Part shown: positions 11,753-20,456 of the stretch, in pieces
Layout of the letters: each line of letters starts with the position of its first letter
How positions within the stretch are numbered: the first letter of the stretch is position 1
NCBI RefSeq assembly: GCF_000239295.1
Contig: NZ_JH417680.1
Location: forward strand, 1 to 49,177
Length of the DNA: 49,177 nucleotides
Source: Flavonifractor plautii ATCC 29863
GTDB lineage: Bacteria > Bacillota > Clostridia > Oscillospirales > Oscillospiraceae
Direction: 5' to 3'
Position numbers and translations under genes: made by a program
Notes under the pieces: model-generated
Database searches by the model: none
What the model was told of the DNA's origin: nothing
Seen by the model: only the letters and a program-made list of their open reading frames with translations

Positions 11753-12778
11753 TCAGCCGATGAACATCGCATCTCCAAAGGAGAAAAACCGATAGCGCTG
11801 CTCCACCGCCTCCTTATAGGCGGCCAGGACATGCTCCCGCCCTGCCAGGGCGGAAACCAGCATGATAAGCGTGGATTCGGGCAGGTGAAAATTGGTGATA
11901 AGACAGTCCAGCGCCTTGAAGCGGTAGCCGGGATAGATGAAGATATTCGTCCACCCCGCGCACTCCTTCAACGTGCCGTCCTCCGCCGCCCAGCTCTCGA
12001 TGGTGCGGCAAGAGGTGGTACCCACACAGATGACCCGCCCCCCTTCCCGCTTGGTACGGTTGATGGTCTCGGCGGTCTCGGCGGAGATCATGCAGTATTC
12101 GCTGTGCATCTCGTGGTCGGTGATCTCCTCCTCCTTCACCGGACGGAAGGTGCCCAGGCCCACATGGAGCGTCACATAGCAGACCTTTACCCCCATTTCC
12201 TGCACCTGCTCCAGCAGGGCACGGGTAAAGTGGAGTCCGGCGGTGGGTGCCGCGGCGGAGCCCACCGCCCGGGAGTACACCGTCTGGTAGCGCTCGGGGT
12301 CGTTCAGCTCCGCCTTGATGTAGGGCGGCAGGGGCATCTTGCCCAGCCGCTCCAGGGTCTCCAGGAAGATCCCCTCATACTCGAAGCGGACCAGCCGGTT
12401 GCCCCCCTCGCATACCTCCACCACCTCGGCCTTGAGGGAGCCGTCCCCGAAGGACAGCCGCGTCCCCGGCTTCAGCTTGCGGCCGGGGCGCACCAGGCAC
12501 TCCCACACCTTGTCCCCCCGGTCGATGAGCAGCAGCACCTCCACCGCACCGCCGGTGGGCTCCCGATGGCCCAGTAGCCGGGCGGGCAGCACCCGCGAGT
12601 CGTTGAGCACCAGGCAGTCCCCCGGGCGCAGGAGGGTAGGCAGATCAAAAAAATGCATGTGCCGGGTGGCTCCGGTCTCCTTGTCCAGCACCAGCAGTCG
12701 GGAGGCGTCCCGCCGCTCCAGCGGGGTCTGAGCAATCAGCTCCTCCGGCAGATAAAAATCAAAATCAGCGGTTTTTAT
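11753..12778 (-). CDS. queA: S-adenosylmethionine:tRNA ribosyltransferase-isomerase, with an ATA at the start position
   Basis: Converts preQ1-tRNA to epoxyqueuosine-tRNA using the ribosyl part of SAM, after Tgt. Conserved blocks are [34 protein letters not shown] and [17 protein letters not shown]. The first in-frame GTG (12691) would delete the conserved N-terminus. Going upstream, the frame reads [19 protein letters not shown], exactly the family's beginning, and the codon at position 1 is ATA (12776-12778). A GAGGTG lies 8 nt before it, and the ATA overlaps the spoIID-like stop as ATAA. From there the protein is 341 residues, the normal length. No in-frame ATG, GTG or TTG lies just upstream. 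Either AUA initiation is used or the base is a sequence error. Confidence 0.93.
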
Positions 12779-14460
12779 GGCTTGCGCACCTCGATTCCAG
12801 TATAGTAAAAGGTCAGAATATCCTTGTAAGTATCACCCTGCTGGGCCATGGAATAGGCACCCCACTGGCTCATGCCCACTCCGTGCCCCCAGCCGGATCC
12901 AGTGATGGTAAAGACGCCGGAGCTGCCGGCCGACGCGGAGGGCTTCACCTGAGAGATGACGCCGTCCCCGCCGATGGCATAGACCTGCCCCTCAGTCAGT
13001 GTGCTCATTGCCCCACTCCCATCCACGGCATAGGCTCCGTTCAGTGTACTGAGGGAACCGGTACCATTGACCGCGTAGCCTCCTCCGCTGCCGCCCGATA
13101 TGGTGTAGTGTTGGGAACGCAGCCCCAGGAAGGTGCGGCACGCCTCCCGCGTCTTGCTCCAGCTCCGGCCGTTGGCATCGGTGAAGGTGATCTCGATGGC
13201 ATTTCCGGTGGGACTGGTCTTGGTCACCCGGAAATCCACGATGGTGCTGTTTCCATAGCCTTTGCTCTGGAGCAGCTCGGTCAGCTCCTGGGCGGTATAG
13301 GTCACCGTCCAGTTGTAGTTAGAGATACGGTCCACGACGGAGGCCTCATAGGGGTCAATCTTCCCGATGAGATAGGGGTAATCCCTCCCCCACACGTTGA
13401 CGGCGCTCTCGCTGGCTCCGCCGTTGTGGGAGGAGTAAACCGCCTGGTCCGCCACCCGCCCATTGTACCACAGATACACCCCGCTGGTCTCCTCCACCGC
13501 CCGGCGGCTGTTGTCGCTGGCGGTAGCGATACCCACGTAGGCCTGACAGTCAGTGGTGTTGCACAGGTCGAAGCCCTGGCTCTGGTGCTTGCCCGCCTGG
13601 AGCTTTCCATAGGCGTAGCTGCGGGCGCAAACCGTCTGGGCTTTCAATGCCTCCAGGGGCCATGAGGGGCTCATCTCCTGGACGATGACGCCCTGGAGAT
13701 AGTCGTCCATGGAAAGCACATTGACCACCGTGATGTCCCCGCCGTTCCGGCGGTATTCAAACGCCCCGAAATAGGAATAGCCCCGGAAGTAGGTTTCCGC
13801 CTTCACCGTGTCGTCCCGGCCGGGCTTAACCGCCAGATACAGGCCGGAGGTGCTGTCAAACTGAAAGAGGACCGTATTGGTGCCCGTCTTTACCACAGAG
13901 ATCCCCGCTCCCGAGGTGCCCGCCACCGTGGCCCCGGTCAGGCCGAGGGAGGCCTGGGCCGCCTGGGCGGAGGTACTGTCCAGGAAGGAGCCCACCCGCA
14001 CATAGTAGGTGCCGTCGATCCAGGCCGGGAAGCCATCGCTGTACTGTGCTGCGGCGGCCGATGCCTCCTCAAAGGTGGCGTAGGTCTGGGGGAGCTGGAG
14101 ATGGTAACACCCCACGGCGATGTCGGAGGTCTTGCTGTCGTAATAGCCGGAGCCACTCCAGTCCACATTCGACCCGTAGTACACATTCTGGGTTTTCACC
14201 ATGGAGACCGTCGTCTCGCTGGTGTAGCCCAGGAGCTGGAAGGTCAGATCGCCATCAAAGTAGCCGAAGCGGTAGCCGCTGCCCACGTCGTTGGCTAGGT
14301 TGGCCCCCGACAGGGCGTTTCCGCCGTAGAACAGGCCCACCCGGACCATCGGGTTGGCCTCCGCCGAGGCCGCACCAGCCGGAGCAAGCCCACTTATCAA
14401 TAAAATTGCAAGACAGGCAGTTACAAGCCGCAAAATATTTCCTTTTACCCTCTGCTTCAT
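12775..14460 (-). CDS. SpoIID/LytB-domain lytic transglycosylase-like protein with a SPOR-like segment
   Basis: A 561-residue secreted protein. A signal peptide covers roughly residues 1-33 (hydrophobic [19 protein letters not shown]). A SPOR-like repeat follows ([19 protein letters not shown], near 150). The SpoIID domain spans about 220-420 with [18 protein letters not shown], whose Glu matches the catalytic residue of SpoIID lytic transglycosylases, then ARSYAY and [12 protein letters not shown]. The C-terminus carries [15 protein letters not shown], typical of the family. It probably cuts peptidoglycan strands during sporulation or wall remodelling. It is longer than classical SpoIID (about 340), so a paralog is possible. 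Start at 14460 was chosen by signal-peptide position; the Shine-Dalgarno is weak. It overlaps queA by 4 nt. Confidence 0.9.
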
Positions 14461-14485
14461 CGAATCACTTTTCAACTCTCTTTCA

Positions 14486-14515
14486 TTGACACATGGGCTC
14501 CATCTGTGGTACAAT
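14486..14515 (+). promoter_or_regulatory. Strong sigma-A promoter for the asd leader
   Basis: Perfect TTGACA (14486-14491), 18-nt spacer, TACAAT (14510-14515). It lies just upstream of the spoIID-like start on the opposite strand and fires into the structured leader. Confidence 0.75.
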
Positions 14516-14526
14516 CTTTGAAAACT

Positions 14527-14674
14527 AATCAGTATCAGATGCAGGATAGGAGCCGTGGCGGTTTCAAAAATGACAGGGAGCGCCCTGCACCTAAGTTGGA
14601 CTGCGCCGTAGCGGCATCGTCTTTGACATTATAGTACAAAATCAGCGGACATGTAAACTGCTGATTTTCTTTTT
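14527..14674 (+). ncRNA. Structured leader with terminator upstream of asd, riboswitch-like, class unknown
   Basis: Plus-strand RNA from the 14486-14515 promoter can form: an outer stem GATGC/GCATC (14538-14542 with 14614-14618); a 7-bp hairpin GGAGCCG/CGGTTTC (14549-14565); CAGGG/CCCTG (14574-14587); a bulged hairpin at 14588-14604; and an intrinsic terminator AAAATCAGC/GCTGATTTT (14638-14668) followed by CTTTTT. AATCAG at 14527-14532 can pair with CTGATT in the terminator's 3' arm, a possible antiterminator. It precedes the diaminopimelate genes. It does not match the lysine riboswitch or a T-box as far as I can see. The minus strand also carries a promoter here, so the opposite orientation is not excluded. 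Confidence 0.55.
14628..14657 (-). promoter_or_regulatory. Sigma-A promoter for the spoIID-like gene and queA
   Basis: On the minus strand TTTACA (14652-14657), 18-nt spacer, perfect TATAAT (14628-14633). The -35 lies in the loop of the plus-strand terminator. The minus transcript would carry the antisense of the asd leader as a 160-nt 5' UTR. Confidence 0.7.
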
Positions 14675-14753
14675 ATATGAAAGTCCTCATTTTCCCAGTC
14701 TCAAACAAGCTGGATCTGGAATAGGATATTATGGAACGACGGAGGTATTGGTT

Positions 14754-15839
14754 ATGGAAAAGTACAGAGTTGGCGTCATCGGCGGCACCGGCATGGTCGG
14801 TCAGCGCTTCGTTACCCTTCTGGAGAACCACCCCTGGTTTCAGTTGACCGCCATCGCGGCCAGCAGCCGCTCTGCGGGCAAGACCTACGAGGAGGCCATT
14901 GGTGGCCGCTGGGCCCTGGATGTCCCCATGCCCGGGGAGGCCAAGGACATGGTGGTGCTCAACGCGGAAACAGACATCGACCGGATTGCCGCCCAGGTGG
15001 ACTTCGTATTCTCCGCGGTGGACATGAAGAAGGAGGAAATTCAGGCCCTGGAGGAGGCTTATGCCCGCCGCGGGTGCCCCGTGGTCTCCAATAACTCCGC
15101 CCACCGCTGGACGCCCGACGTGCCCATGGTGGTGCCGGAGATCAATCCCGAGCACCTCCGGGTCATCGAAGCCCAGCGCAGGCGTCTGGGAACGGAGCGC
15201 GGCTTTATCGCCGTCAAGTCCAACTGTTCCCTGCAAAGCTATGTCCCCGCCCTCCATCCCCTGCGCGCCTTCGGCCTGGAGCAGGTGCTGGTCTGCACCT
15301 ATCAGGCCATCTCCGGTGCGGGCAAGACCTTCGAAACCTGGCCGGAGATGGTGGACAACGTGATACCCTACATCGGTGGTGAGGAGGAAAAGAGCGAGCA
15401 GGAGCCCCTGAAGCTGTGGGGCCGGGTGGAGGACGGCGTTATCGTCAATGCCGCAGGCCCGTCCATCACCGCCCAGTGTCTCCGCGTTCCCGCCTCCAAC
15501 GGCCACATGGCAGCCGTTTTCGCCCGGTTCCGGAACAAGCCCTCTCTGGACGAAATCAAAGCCGCCTGGGCGGGCTTCCAGGGCCGTGCCCAGGAGCTGG
15601 CCCTGCCCTCTGCCCCCAAGCAGTTCCTGCACTACTTTGAGGAGCCTGACCGCCCCCAGACCCGGCTGGACCGGATGACCGAGGGCGGCATGGCCGTGTG
15701 CATCGGCCGGCTGCGTCCCGACACCCAGTACGACTACAAGTTCGTCTGTCTGTCCCACAACACCCTCCGCGGCGCGGCCGGCGGTGCGGTTCTCCTTGCT
15801 GAGCTTCTCTGCGCGGAGGGGTATATCCAAAGGAGGTAA
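14754..15839 (+). CDS. asd: Aspartate-semialdehyde dehydrogenase
   Basis: Reduces aspartyl phosphate to aspartate semialdehyde with NADPH, the shared step to lysine/diaminopimelate, threonine and methionine. At 361 residues, motifs are the nucleotide loop VGVIGGTGMVGQRF at the N-terminus, the catalytic cysteine in KSNCSLQ (about 160) and the substrate region YQAISGAGKTFETWPEM. It resembles the archaeal/fungal-type branch more than the E. coli type (inference from motif wording). The ATG at 14754 has GGAGG 8 nt upstream; the in-frame TTG two codons earlier is less likely. It heads asd-dapA-dapB, behind a structured leader. Confidence 0.96.
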   Translation: MEKYRVGVIGGTGMVGQRFVTLLENHPWFQLTAIAASSRSAGKTYEEAIGGRWALDVPMPGEAKDMVVLNAETDIDRIAAQVDFVFSAVDMKKEEIQALEEAYARRGCPVVSNNSAHRWTPDVPMVVPEINPEHLRVIEAQRRRLGTERGFIAVKSNCSLQSYVPALHPLRAFGLEQVLVCTYQAISGAGKTFETWPEMVDNVIPYIGGEEEKSEQEPLKLWGRVEDGVIVNAAGPSITAQCLRVPASNGHMAAVFARFRNKPSLDEIKAAWAGFQGRAQELALPSAPKQFLHYFEEPDRPQTRLDRMTEGGMAVCIGRLRPDTQYDYKFVCLSHNTLRGAAGGAVLLAELLCAEGYIQRR

Positions 15840-15849
15840 ACCCCATCTT

Positions 15850-16740
15850 ATGCGAGAGCCTGTTTTCACCGGAGCCTGTACCGCCATTGTCACCCCCTTT
15901 GACCAGAGCGGCGCCATTGATTACGGCTGCTTCGGCCACCTGATCGACCAGCAGCTCGACCACGGCGTGGATGCCATCTGCGTCTGCGGAACCACCGGCG
16001 AGAGCGCCACCCTCTCTATCCGGGAGCACATCGCCGCCGTGGCCTTCTGCGTCAAGCGGGTTAACCACCGGGTGAAGGTCATTGCCGGCGCGGGGAGCAA
16101 CGACACCTCCGCTGCCCTCTACCTCTCCCAGCACGCCCAGGACTCCGGCGCGGACGCCCTGCTGCTCGTCACCCCCTACTACAACAAAGCGTCCCAGACC
16201 GGCCTCATTCAGCACTACACCTACATAGCCGACCGGGTGGAGCTGCCCATCCTTCTCTACAATGTCCCCTCCCGCACCGGCGTATCCTTTACCGCCGAGA
16301 CCTACCAGCTTCTCTCGCAGCACCCCAACATCAACGGGGTCAAGGAGGCCAGCGGAAACTTCTCCCTGCTCTCCCACACCCGCGCCCTCTGCGGCGATGA
16401 CTTCCACATCTGGTCGGGCAACGACGATCAGGTGGTGCCCATGATGAGTCTGGGGGCCAAGGGGGTCGTCTCCGTGGCGGCCAATCTCGTCCCTGAGGTG
16501 ATGGTTCAGATGAGCCACCTCTGCCTGGAGGGCCGGTTCCGGGAGGCCGCTGCGCTCCAGATCGAGTACACCGACCTCATTGACGCCCTCTTTCTGGAGG
16601 TCAACCCCATCCCCATCAAGACCGCCCTGAATCTGGCCGGCTATGAGGTGGGTTCCCTGCGCCTCCCCCTTTGCGCCATGTCCGACGGGCACCTGGAGAC
16701 CCTGCGCCGCGCCATGGAGAGCGCTCACCTGCTCCAATAG
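15850..16740 (+). CDS. dapA: 4-hydroxy-tetrahydrodipicolinate synthase
   Basis: Condenses pyruvate with aspartate semialdehyde in the diaminopimelate pathway. A 296-residue TIM barrel with CGTTGESATL (catalytic Thr pair), VTPYYNKASQTG, LYNVPSRTG (catalytic Tyr) and the Schiff-base lysine in GVKEASGNF (about 162). The start at 15850 (MREPVFTGACTAIVTPF) matches the family N-terminus; AAAGGAGG lies 13 nt upstream, overlapping the asd stop. It lies between asd and dapB in one transcription unit. Confidence 0.97.
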   Translation: MREPVFTGACTAIVTPFDQSGAIDYGCFGHLIDQQLDHGVDAICVCGTTGESATLSIREHIAAVAFCVKRVNHRVKVIAGAGSNDTSAALYLSQHAQDSGADALLLVTPYYNKASQTGLIQHYTYIADRVELPILLYNVPSRTGVSFTAETYQLLSQHPNINGVKEASGNFSLLSHTRALCGDDFHIWSGNDDQVVPMMSLGAKGVVSVAANLVPEVMVQMSHLCLEGRFREAAALQIEYTDLIDALFLEVNPIPIKTALNLAGYEVGSLRLPLCAMSDGHLETLRRAMESAHLLQ

Positions 16741-16761: not shown

Positions 16762-17529
16762 ATGGTTCAACTGCTCCTCTCCGGCTGTAACGGCCGGATG
16801 GGCCATGCGGTAGAGGCTATCTGTGCCGCTGAACCGGAGCTGGAGCTGACCGCCGGCTTTGATCTGCTGGGCGCGGATATCCGCGATTTCCCGGTATACG
16901 CCTCCCCCGCCGAATTTCAGGGAGAAGCCGACGTTGTGGTGGACTTCTCCAGTCCCTCGGCCCTTCCCGCTCTGCTGAGCTTCGGCCTGGAACACAGGAT
17001 GCCCCTTGTGCTGGCCACCACCGGCTATGACCAGGGACAACTGGAGGAGATACAGCAGGCTGCCCGTTCCATCCCTATCTTTCGCTCCGCCAACCTGTCC
17101 CTTGGCGTAAACATCCTCGTCGAGTTGGTACGCCGGACCGCAGCGGTGCTGGGCGGGAGCTGTGACATCGAAATCGTGGAGCGGCACCACAACAAGAAGA
17201 TGGATGCCCCCAGTGGGACGGCCCTCATGCTGGCAGAGGCCGCGGCGGACGCCCTCCCTTGCCAACCGGAGCTGGTCTGCGGCCGGCAGGGTATCCGGCG
17301 GAGCCGGGAGCGCTGTGAAATCGGCATCTCCTCGGTGCGGGGCGGTGGAATTGTGGGCGACCATGAGGTGCTCTTTGCCGGGCGGGATGAGCTCATTGAG
17401 CTGCGGCACTCCGCCCTGAGCCGCGAGGTGTTTGCCTCCGGAGCGGTTCAGGCCGCCCGGTTTCTGGCTGCCGGGCAGTCCCCCGGTCTATACTCCATGG
17501 CGGACTTGGTGACCTATTTGGGCCTCTAA
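16762..17529 (+). CDS. dapB: 4-hydroxy-tetrahydrodipicolinate reductase
   Basis: Reduces the DapA product with NAD(P)H towards tetrahydrodipicolinate. A 255-residue protein with N-terminal Rossmann motif SGCNGRMGHAV, DFSSPSAL, LATTGY, SANLSLGVN, the catalytic ERHHNKKMDAPSGTA (about 140-155) and the C-terminal SVRGGGIVGDHEV. AAAGGATG precedes the ATG. Last gene of asd-dapA-dapB; a hairpin terminator follows. Confidence 0.97.
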   Translation: MVQLLLSGCNGRMGHAVEAICAAEPELELTAGFDLLGADIRDFPVYASPAEFQGEADVVVDFSSPSALPALLSFGLEHRMPLVLATTGYDQGQLEEIQQAARSIPIFRSANLSLGVNILVELVRRTAAVLGGSCDIEIVERHHNKKMDAPSGTALMLAEAAADALPCQPELVCGRQGIRRSRERCEIGISSVRGGGIVGDHEVLFAGRDELIELRHSALSREVFASGAVQAARFLAAGQSPGLYSMADLVTYLGL

Positions 17530-18825: not shown

Positions 18826-18866
18826 AAAAGGGCGCCGGAGGGGAATTATCCTCCGGCGCCTTTTTT
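18824..18866. terminator. Terminator after tyrS
   Basis: An 11-bp GC-rich stem (GGCGCCGGAGG with its complement, 8-nt loop) with T runs on both sides, directly after the tyrS stop. It separates tyrS from the downstream permease gene. Confidence 0.88.
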
Positions 18867-20095
18867 CATTCACCGAGCACCGCACGGTGGAAGACCTTTT
18901 TTCCCTTTTTGAGCATTATACCCTCGCCGGAGAGCTGTTCGGCGGTCACGGCTGCGGCCACATCGGTGACCTTCTGACCGTCCAACTCCACCCCTCCCTG
19001 CTCCACCAGGCGGCGAGCCTCCTTCTTGGAGGGCACCAGGCCGCACTTGAGCATCAGCTCCAGCACCCCGATCGCCCCGTCAGTCAGATCGCCGGTGTCC
19101 AGGGTGGTGGTGGGCACGTTGGACTTGTCGCCTCCCTGGGCGAACAGGGCCTTGGCCGCGTCCTGGGCCTTCTGCGCCTCCTCCTCGCCGTGAACCAGCT
19201 TGGTCAGCTCAAAGGCCAGGATCTCCTTGGCTTGGTTGAGCTGGGCGCCCTCCCACTTGTCCATCTCGTCGATCTGCTCAATGGGAAGGAAGGTGAGCAT
19301 ACGCAGGCACTTGAGCACATCGCTGTCGCCCACGTTGCGCCAGTACTGGTAGAACTCATAGGGACTGGTCTTGTTGGGATCCAGCCACACCGCGCCCTTG
19401 GCGGTCTTGCCCATCTTCTTCCCCTCGGAGTTGAGCAGCAGGGTAATGGTCATGGCGTGGGCATCCTTGCCCAGCTTGCGGCGGATGAGCTCGGTGCCGC
19501 CCAGCATATTGGACCACTGGTCATCACCGCCGAACTGCATGTTGCATCCGTAGTGCTGGAACAGGTGGTAGAAATCGTAGGACTGCATGATCATGTAGTT
19601 GAACTCCAGAAAGCTCAGCCCCTTCTCCATGCGCTGCTTATAACACTCGGCCCGCAGCATGTTGTTCACGCTGAAGCAGGCGCCCACCTCGCGGAGCAGC
19701 TCCACATAGTTCAGGTCCATCAGCCAGTCGGCGTTGTTCACCATCTGGGCCTTGCCGTCACCGAACTCGATAAAACGCTCCATCTGCTTCTTAAAGCAGG
19801 CGCAGTTGTGCTGTATGGTCTCCACCGTCATCATGGAGCGCATGTCGGTGCGGCCGGAGGGGTCACCCACCATACCGGTACCGCCTCCGATGAGGGCGAT
19901 GGGCCGGTTGCCCGCCATCTGGAGCCGCTTCATCAGGCAAAGGGCCATGAAGTGGCCCACGTGGAGGGAATCGGCGGTGGGATCGAATCCGATATAGAAC
20001 ACTGCCTTACCCTCGTTGATCATCTTGGAGATCTCTTCCTCATTGGTTACCTGGGCAATGAGGCCACGGGCCTTCAGTTCTTCGTAACAGGTCAT
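18866..20095 (-). CDS. tyrS: Tyrosyl-tRNA synthetase
   Basis: Charges tRNA-Tyr. At 409 residues it shows the class I signature as SLHVGHF (about 44), [13 protein letters not shown], the tyrosine pocket region GGDDQWSN and the KMSKS-like loop GKKMGKT (about 230) followed by GAVWLD. A C-terminal S4-type RNA-binding domain is present ([19 protein letters not shown]). GGAG lies 9 nt before the ATG. Expression is controlled by the T-box leader upstream. Confidence 0.98.
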
Positions 20096-20178: not shown

Positions 20179-20456
20179 TAAAAAACGCCCCCTGTCCTCA
20201 CGGACAGAGGGCGTTGTCAAACGCGGTACCACCTCTGGTTCACCATCCCCTCACGGAGACAGCCTCATGGAGTGCCAACACACTCCGGCGCGGTAACGGG
20301 CGCACCCGACACAGCCCTACTGCGCGCCTTCACGCGGTTCGGGCGGCTGCTCCAGGGTGTATTTCCCGGCCTGTCCCCTCCCCCTCACACCAAGCCGGGG
20401 GCTCTCTGGGCGGGACATAAGACGGTACTTCTCCCTGTCATCGCAGTCTCATATTG
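20179..20456 (-). promoter_or_regulatory. T-box leader (tyrosine) upstream of tyrS
   Basis: The conserved T-box antiterminator AGGTGGTACCGCG is at 20222-20234 on the minus strand. It is followed by a terminator stem (20184-20215) with a U run. Upstream, an AGUA-like box and a candidate UAC tyrosine specifier (20359-20361, in GAAATACACC) fit stem I. Uncharged tRNA-Tyr should stabilise the antiterminator and raise tyrS expression. Confidence 0.92.

Follow-up and report, generated by a model that had tools for sequence, protein, structure and literature searches.

Operons of the asd-dapA-dapB type preceded by a lysine riboswitch have already been described in Clostridiales, according to the accessible part of the report (PMC5584792). 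A related arrangement is that of ubiGmccBA in Clostridium acetobutylicum, which, in the portion of the source available (PMC7154746), has two facing promoters, S-box antitermination and overlapping transcripts, with the riboswitch controlling an antisense RNA. The available sections of a survey of antisense-acting riboswitches tabulate 8 such cases among 1,974 lysine riboswitches (PMC9943018). A promoter inside the terminator of a lysine riboswitch was the subject of none of the literature matches listed, which came from a search mostly of journals outside subscription.

The window, i.e. the whole stretch of 49,177 nt analysed here, comes from Flavonifractor plautii ATCC 29863 and includes the asd-dapA-dapB operon and, divergent from it, a spoIID-queA operon. 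The original prediction was that an unassigned riboswitch-like leader lies between the two promoters. As judged by comparison with related genomes, the leader appears instead to be a degenerate lysine riboswitch, the terminator of which overlaps the opposing queA/spoIID promoter, and we put the probability of this reading at about 0.78. The features of the locus are as follows.

14486..14515, plus strand: promoter of asd, TTGACA-18-TACAAT (promoter scan; same promoter in relatives of the same genus)
14522..14622, plus strand: leader, putative relic of the lysine-riboswitch region (sequence alignment; without convincing covariance-model match)
14539-14585, plus strand: recognisable 5' leader piece, TGCAGGATAG.GAG..GGCGG.TTTCAAAA
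14596-14617, plus strand: weakly recognisable 3' leader piece, GGACTG.CGCCG
14627..14646, plus strand: near-invariant block CATTATAGTACAAAATCAGC (comparison of relatives)
14638..14674, plus strand: intrinsic terminator, with the hairpin at 14638-14668 and the U tract at 14670-14674 (folding against shuffles)
14657-14628, minus strand: promoter of the spoIID-queA operon, TTTACA-18-TATAAT, with its -35 in the terminator loop (promoter scan)
14698..14728, plus strand: candidate second asd promoter, GTCTCAAAC..AATAGGATA, 3' of the terminator (post hoc motif)
14754..15839, plus strand: asd (start picked by comparison with relatives; name from the original prediction and homologues)
15850..16740, plus strand: dapA (start approximate; name from the original prediction and synteny)
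16762..17529, plus strand: dapB (name from the original prediction)
12775..14460, minus strand: spoIID-like gene (Pfam PF08486)
11753..12691, minus strand: queA (Pfam PF02547)

Both promoters, the near-consensus one on the plus strand and the one running through the terminator on the minus strand, are present as sequences, as had been claimed, and the count for the promoter pair in 14000-15200 was 2, as compared with 0.5 +/- 0.7 in shuffles. The claimed terminator is also real: AAAATCAGC...GCTGATTTT, followed by CTTTTT, folds at -12.1 kcal/mol (z -4.6; 1 of 200 shuffles as good). A simple terminator scan with a loop limit of 8 left it unlisted, probably due to its 9-nt loop. With promoter, a leader of ~120 nt and terminator all in place, the layout is that of a transcriptional riboswitch, as expected.

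The closed multi-hairpin structure proposed for the leader 5' of the terminator was not borne out, as the fold of 14522-14620 gave z -0.79, with 45 of 200 shuffles as good. For 14522-14645 the values were z -1.46 and 18 of 200 dinucleotide shuffles, and with the terminator included they were z -2.21 and 8 of 200. A pairing of AATCAG at the 5' end of the leader with CTGATT in the 3' arm of the terminator had also been suggested; it is possible on paper but absent from the minimum-energy fold, and rivals the adjacent 11-bp hairpin for the 3' arm. The GATGC/GCATC and GGAGCCG/CGGTTTC stems were found in no relative's leader that was read by eye or matched by BLAST.

A covariance search of 14400-14760 gave no match to RF00168 (lysine riboswitch) or to the T-box at E<=10, in agreement with the misfit to both that had been noted by eye. 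The only Rfam matches in this region at E<=10 were ncr1175 and PVX_3, both weak and far under their cut-offs, and the sRNA match ncr1175 was rejected at 13.8 bits and E 6.3 against a cut-off of 60. A family-specific model of the lysine riboswitch built here, R1, reached at best 5.4 bits in the window, on the terminator hairpin. By reading, the P1 5' strand GCAGGATAG is present in the leader and the 3' strand CTGTCTGC is absent, and a five-stem aptamer with both P1 strands was not seen. The T-box model (RF00230) likewise had no match in the leader; the sole T-box leader of the window above cut-off (95.1 bits) is at 20204-20450 on the minus strand, upstream of a gene (18866-20095, minus strand) that reads as tyrosyl-tRNA synthetase.

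A functional minimised riboswitch, or a new class, in F. plautii, as the original prediction had it, would agree with the promoter-leader-terminator layout and with a terminator of sufficient stability to work. We consider it very unlikely, since the leader had no match outside its terminator end in 299 other genomes of the family (E<=0.001, two candidates each), leaders of the same genus differ, the leader folds no better than shuffled sequence and no antiterminator partner rises above shuffles. The best duplex available to the block in the window, at -6.6 kcal/mol, was equalled or bettered in 94 of 100 shuffled leaders, and no antiterminator was evident there.

The relatives point to the degenerate lysine riboswitch. 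The 159-nt leader was used as a BLAST query against 300 genomes of the family (E<=0.001, two candidates scored per genome), and matches were obtained in 41 genomes, the window's own included. In the 40 others the match begins at leader position 89 or later and comprises the CATTATAGTACAAAATCAGC block, the hairpin and the T-tract. The 30 loci fetched share their neighbouring genes, a spoIID relative and asd on opposite sides, and in 19 of them Rfam identified a full lysine riboswitch (RF00168) between the plus promoter and the block. Within the genus Flavonifractor, asd was matched in 19 of 20 genomes and RF00168 lies directly upstream of it in 15 of these 19, five of the 15 being also counted among the 19 loci above; the exceptions are the window genome (G000), G300, G308 and G311. 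A further 80 loci of the family were hand-picked among the asd matches listed, which were ordered by similarity to the window, and 16 of them have the riboswitch by model R1, the next match scoring 12.8 bits. Riboswitch status was thus assigned by R1 in the 80 loci and by RF00168 in the genus and in the 30 loci fetched first. Overall, a lysine riboswitch precedes asd in 45 of 123 genomes, a count that is weakened, like every other given here, by the fact that related genomes are not independent. The 123 genomes include 41 chosen by DNA match to the block and 82 chosen by asd (13 from the genus and 69 of the 80); asd itself was found in at least 273 of the 300.

Hence the leader is probably not an unassigned one, given that in many relatives this promoter and this terminator flank a full lysine riboswitch and that the window leader aligns to those of its genus. 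The loci are homologous, their elements occupy corresponding positions, and the promoter and hairpin are conserved. Two other lysine riboswitches, both intact (L031 and L032), are present in the window genome and precede, as named by reading the translations, an ABC-transporter-like substrate-binding (amino-acid) gene and a Kce-like (lysine fermentation) gene.

Alignment of the window leader with 18 leaders from the same genus, 15 of them with the riboswitch, gave a best score of 37.5 as compared with null maxima of 21.3 +/- 2.6 (0 of 300 shuffles as good), part of this signal stemming from the stretch 5' of the aptamer. The alignment covers that stretch together with ~45 nt at the 5' end of the aptamer. 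With the aptamer pieces taken alone, the number of shuffles as good, out of 500, was 4 for the 5' piece, 38 for the 3' piece and 13 for the two joined. Locus and sequence together indicate descent of the window leader from lysine riboswitch leaders, the alignment of the aptamer alone being modest. It counts against decay that the homology is drawn from sequence alignment, given no convincing covariance-model match in the window. The spread of the riboswitch among relatives suggests that the aptamer was lost in the window rather than never complete.

Possible intermediates of decay were recognised by reading, unscored. P1-like ends are kept around a short hairpin in G311 (L051), and a scrambled 5' half of the aptamer is kept in G237 (L026), while in G300 and G308 (L036 and L049) a convincing terminator is gone too. 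L007, L018, L020, L022 and others have, by the same unscored reading, a leader of only 29-81 nt. A tree of asd genes from 26 of the 123 genomes requires 4 changes, 2 of them forced by well-supported branches, and leaves undecided both the number of losses and whether the window shares its loss with G300 and G308. The aptamer-less leaders of G200 and G064 (L023 and L024), which belong to one genus, share CGTTTCCGGCGGATACCTGT 5' of an intact terminator, possibly another regulator or a riboswitch remnant.

The opposing promoter was scored as the best minus-strand TTGACA/TATAAT match no more than 230 nt from asd. The score is at least 9 in 119 of the 123 genomes, namely 44 of the 45 riboswitch loci and 75 of the 78 others (12% of shuffles), and at least 11 in 39 and 72 of these, respectively (2% of shuffles). 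Of the 82 genomes chosen by asd, 79 reach 9 and 73 reach 11. The promoter persists where riboswitch and terminator are absent. Twelve larger loci, 11 of them drawn from the 30 of the 80 without a spoIID match, were inspected; queA adjoins asd in 8, and a spoIID relative still lies between in 4. As the minus promoter persists where queA adjoins asd (at least 11 in 7 of the 8, the exception being G058), it is probably the promoter of the queA operon, often spoIID-queA.

Where both promoters score at least 9, the plus one is upstream and the two face each other in all 44 such riboswitch loci and in 69 of the 72 others (17 of 17 and 56 of 59 without the 41 BLAST-picked genomes), with median gaps of 232 and 56 nt, respectively; the search windows favour this order, yet do not force tight gaps. 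Judged by promoter sequences, the statement that the spoIID-queA mRNA would be antisense to the leader holds, and the arrangement is conserved in the family sample. Facing promoters with overlapping predicted transcripts, a feature of excludon-type systems, appear to be conserved.

The terminators of the genus fold at -14.5 to -15.8 kcal/mol in 15 of 15 riboswitch loci. In the four loci without riboswitch the values are -12.1 (window), -10.0 (G308, a different and doubtful hairpin), -8.5 and none, and the terminator is hence weaker or lost in all four. A loose terminator scan was dropped, 44 of 123 shuffled regions being positive, and replaced by a search for a hairpin that encloses the opposing -35. 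Such a hairpin is present in 44 of the 45 riboswitch loci and 12 of the 78 others, and in 27 of 357 shuffles that preserved the promoter (Fisher p 4e-21, on the untrue assumption that the genomes are independent). With the 41 BLAST-picked genomes set aside, the counts are 17 of 17 riboswitch loci versus 4 of 65 others. Because the minus promoter is kept without the riboswitch and the terminator mostly is not, conservation of the promoter is independent of the riboswitch, whereas that of the terminator largely depends on it.

In an alignment of the terminator stem (28 of 56 rows), 93.8% of the cells are paired and changes on both sides occur at 6 of 8 pairs; none of 500 shuffles paired as highly, a result that gives no probability for related sequences. 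A chance juxtaposition, in which a short upstream transcript happens to end at an unrelated terminator next to an ordinary promoter, would fit the frequency of terminator-like hairpins in the loose scan of shuffled regions, but the -35-enclosing geometry of the riboswitch loci, scarce in shuffles, and the double changes in the stem make it extremely improbable. The 20-nt block was also considered as a repressor operator. This was rejected because the T-tract lies 3' of the hairpin on the asd side and the hairpin accompanies the riboswitch; loci without riboswitch or hairpin keep mainly the promoter boxes, which also weakens it, and covariation by itself would not rule out a palindromic operator. 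A leader-peptide attenuator, suggested by reading frames that stay open across the terminator in L007, L020 and L022, was rejected by eye, as start codons and ribosome sites looked inconsistent and third positions were invariant too.

The terminator is present in 9 aptamer-less genomes from 6 genera, at full strength in G064, G200, G160, G116 and G230. Seven cells of the stem show double changes, 2 in the riboswitch row G115 and 5 in the aptamer-less rows G064, G180 and G050. Since the terminator is kept in aptamer-less genomes and double changes occur there, loss of the aptamer need not mean loss of function, which favours some remaining use in these genomes. The terminator on the promoter might serve without any aptamer, by attenuating asd to a fixed degree and by stalling or ending polymerases either ahead of the queA promoter or on it, so that the two operons are balanced. 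Facing promoters in loci with and without the riboswitch would be in keeping with such a use, as would the retained terminators and double changes. However, none of the four aptamer-less loci in the window's own genus has kept a terminator of full strength, 66 of the 78 aptamer-less loci have no such terminator, and the double-change rows G180 and G050, with one and four of the eight stem pairs unpaired, respectively, pair imperfectly and were aligned by sequence alone. We regard this explanation as unlikely for the window.

Under the preferred reading, a degenerate lysine riboswitch, RNA from the asd promoter of the relatives would contain a lysine aptamer of ~175 nt. With lysine, P1 would close and the hairpin AAATCAGC...GCTGATTT would be freed, giving termination. 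When lysine is lacking, CATTATAGTACAAAATCAG would instead be paired to the 3' strand of P1 (CTGTCTGCTTTTG..ATATGG), and transcription would proceed into asd-dapA-dapB. Intact relatives would thereby work as the usual lysine OFF switch. In riboswitch relatives, the CATTATAGTACAAAATCAGC block is predicted to combine the 3' strand of the antiterminator with the 5' arm of the terminator. Of 44 riboswitch loci, 34 have a best duplex of the block that pairs 4 or more bases of the post-P1 CTG..TTT strand; in the other 10 it lies elsewhere or involves less of that strand. The mean for the block-leader duplex is -13.1 kcal/mol, and no more than 5 of 100 shuffles were as good in just 12 of the 44 loci.

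Read on the other strand, the block supplies the opposing promoter with its -10 and some of its spacer. The terminator is superposed on the queA/spoIID promoter, with the -35 in the loop, the spacer in the 5' arm and the -10 just upstream. In the window lineage, the aptamer would have shrunk to ~85 nt, with loss of the P1 3' strand and a weaker terminator. Lysine control of asd is probably gone in the window, which would leave a weak constitutive attenuator and two facing promoters, both presumably in use and perhaps interfering with each other. It may further be supposed that, family-wide, one short sequence serves as the lysine-dependent terminator/antiterminator of asd and as the queA/spoIID promoter, lysine setting both ('two-headed'), and that this role is kept without the aptamer. 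We hold this to be doubtful. If true, lysine-controlled pausing, termination or read-through atop the promoter would set queA/spoIID transcription.

Between the terminator and asd, GTCTcAaAC is followed by (C/A)ATAgnaTA ~30 nt before the ATG (14698-14728). The pattern [CA]ATA..[AG]TA, chosen post hoc, is present in 15 of 45 riboswitch loci and 20 of 78 others, as compared with 1.4% and 1.2% of shuffles. It resembles CATAnnnTA, which we take to be the -10 of mother-cell sigma factors, and could be a lysine-independent asd-dapA promoter for dipicolinate synthesis in sporulation.

In place of the claimed new riboswitch class stands what appears to be a known class in successive states of decay, spread over one genus and related genomes: full aptamer, aptamer remnant, terminator only and no terminator. 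The loss of a riboswitch and the fate of orphan expression platforms become directly testable in these genomes. That an expression platform and an opposite-strand promoter occupy one sequence also warns against taking conservation of such a leader as RNA structure alone.

The closest known system is the lysine riboswitch (RF00168, L-box), which has the same place before asd, the same promoter and terminator platform, and full members in sister genomes; the window differs in having no recognisable aptamer core, P1 3' strand, antiterminator or convincing model match. With the S-box system of ubiGmccBA, as described in the accessible part of that report, the locus shares two facing promoters, antitermination of the riboswitch type and overlapping transcripts (here predicted), but here the relatives' riboswitch stands ahead of the genes downstream of it and has the opposing promoter within its terminator. 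In excludons and antisense-acting riboswitches (aspocR, Listeria), opposite transcripts likewise overlap around a riboswitch, according to the available portions of PMC9943018 and PMC7154746, whereas the transcripts that would overlap in this locus are the 5' leaders of divergent operons, as predicted from sequence alone. The type of riboswitch is therefore ordinary, and it is the overlap of its terminator with an opposing promoter that is unusual.
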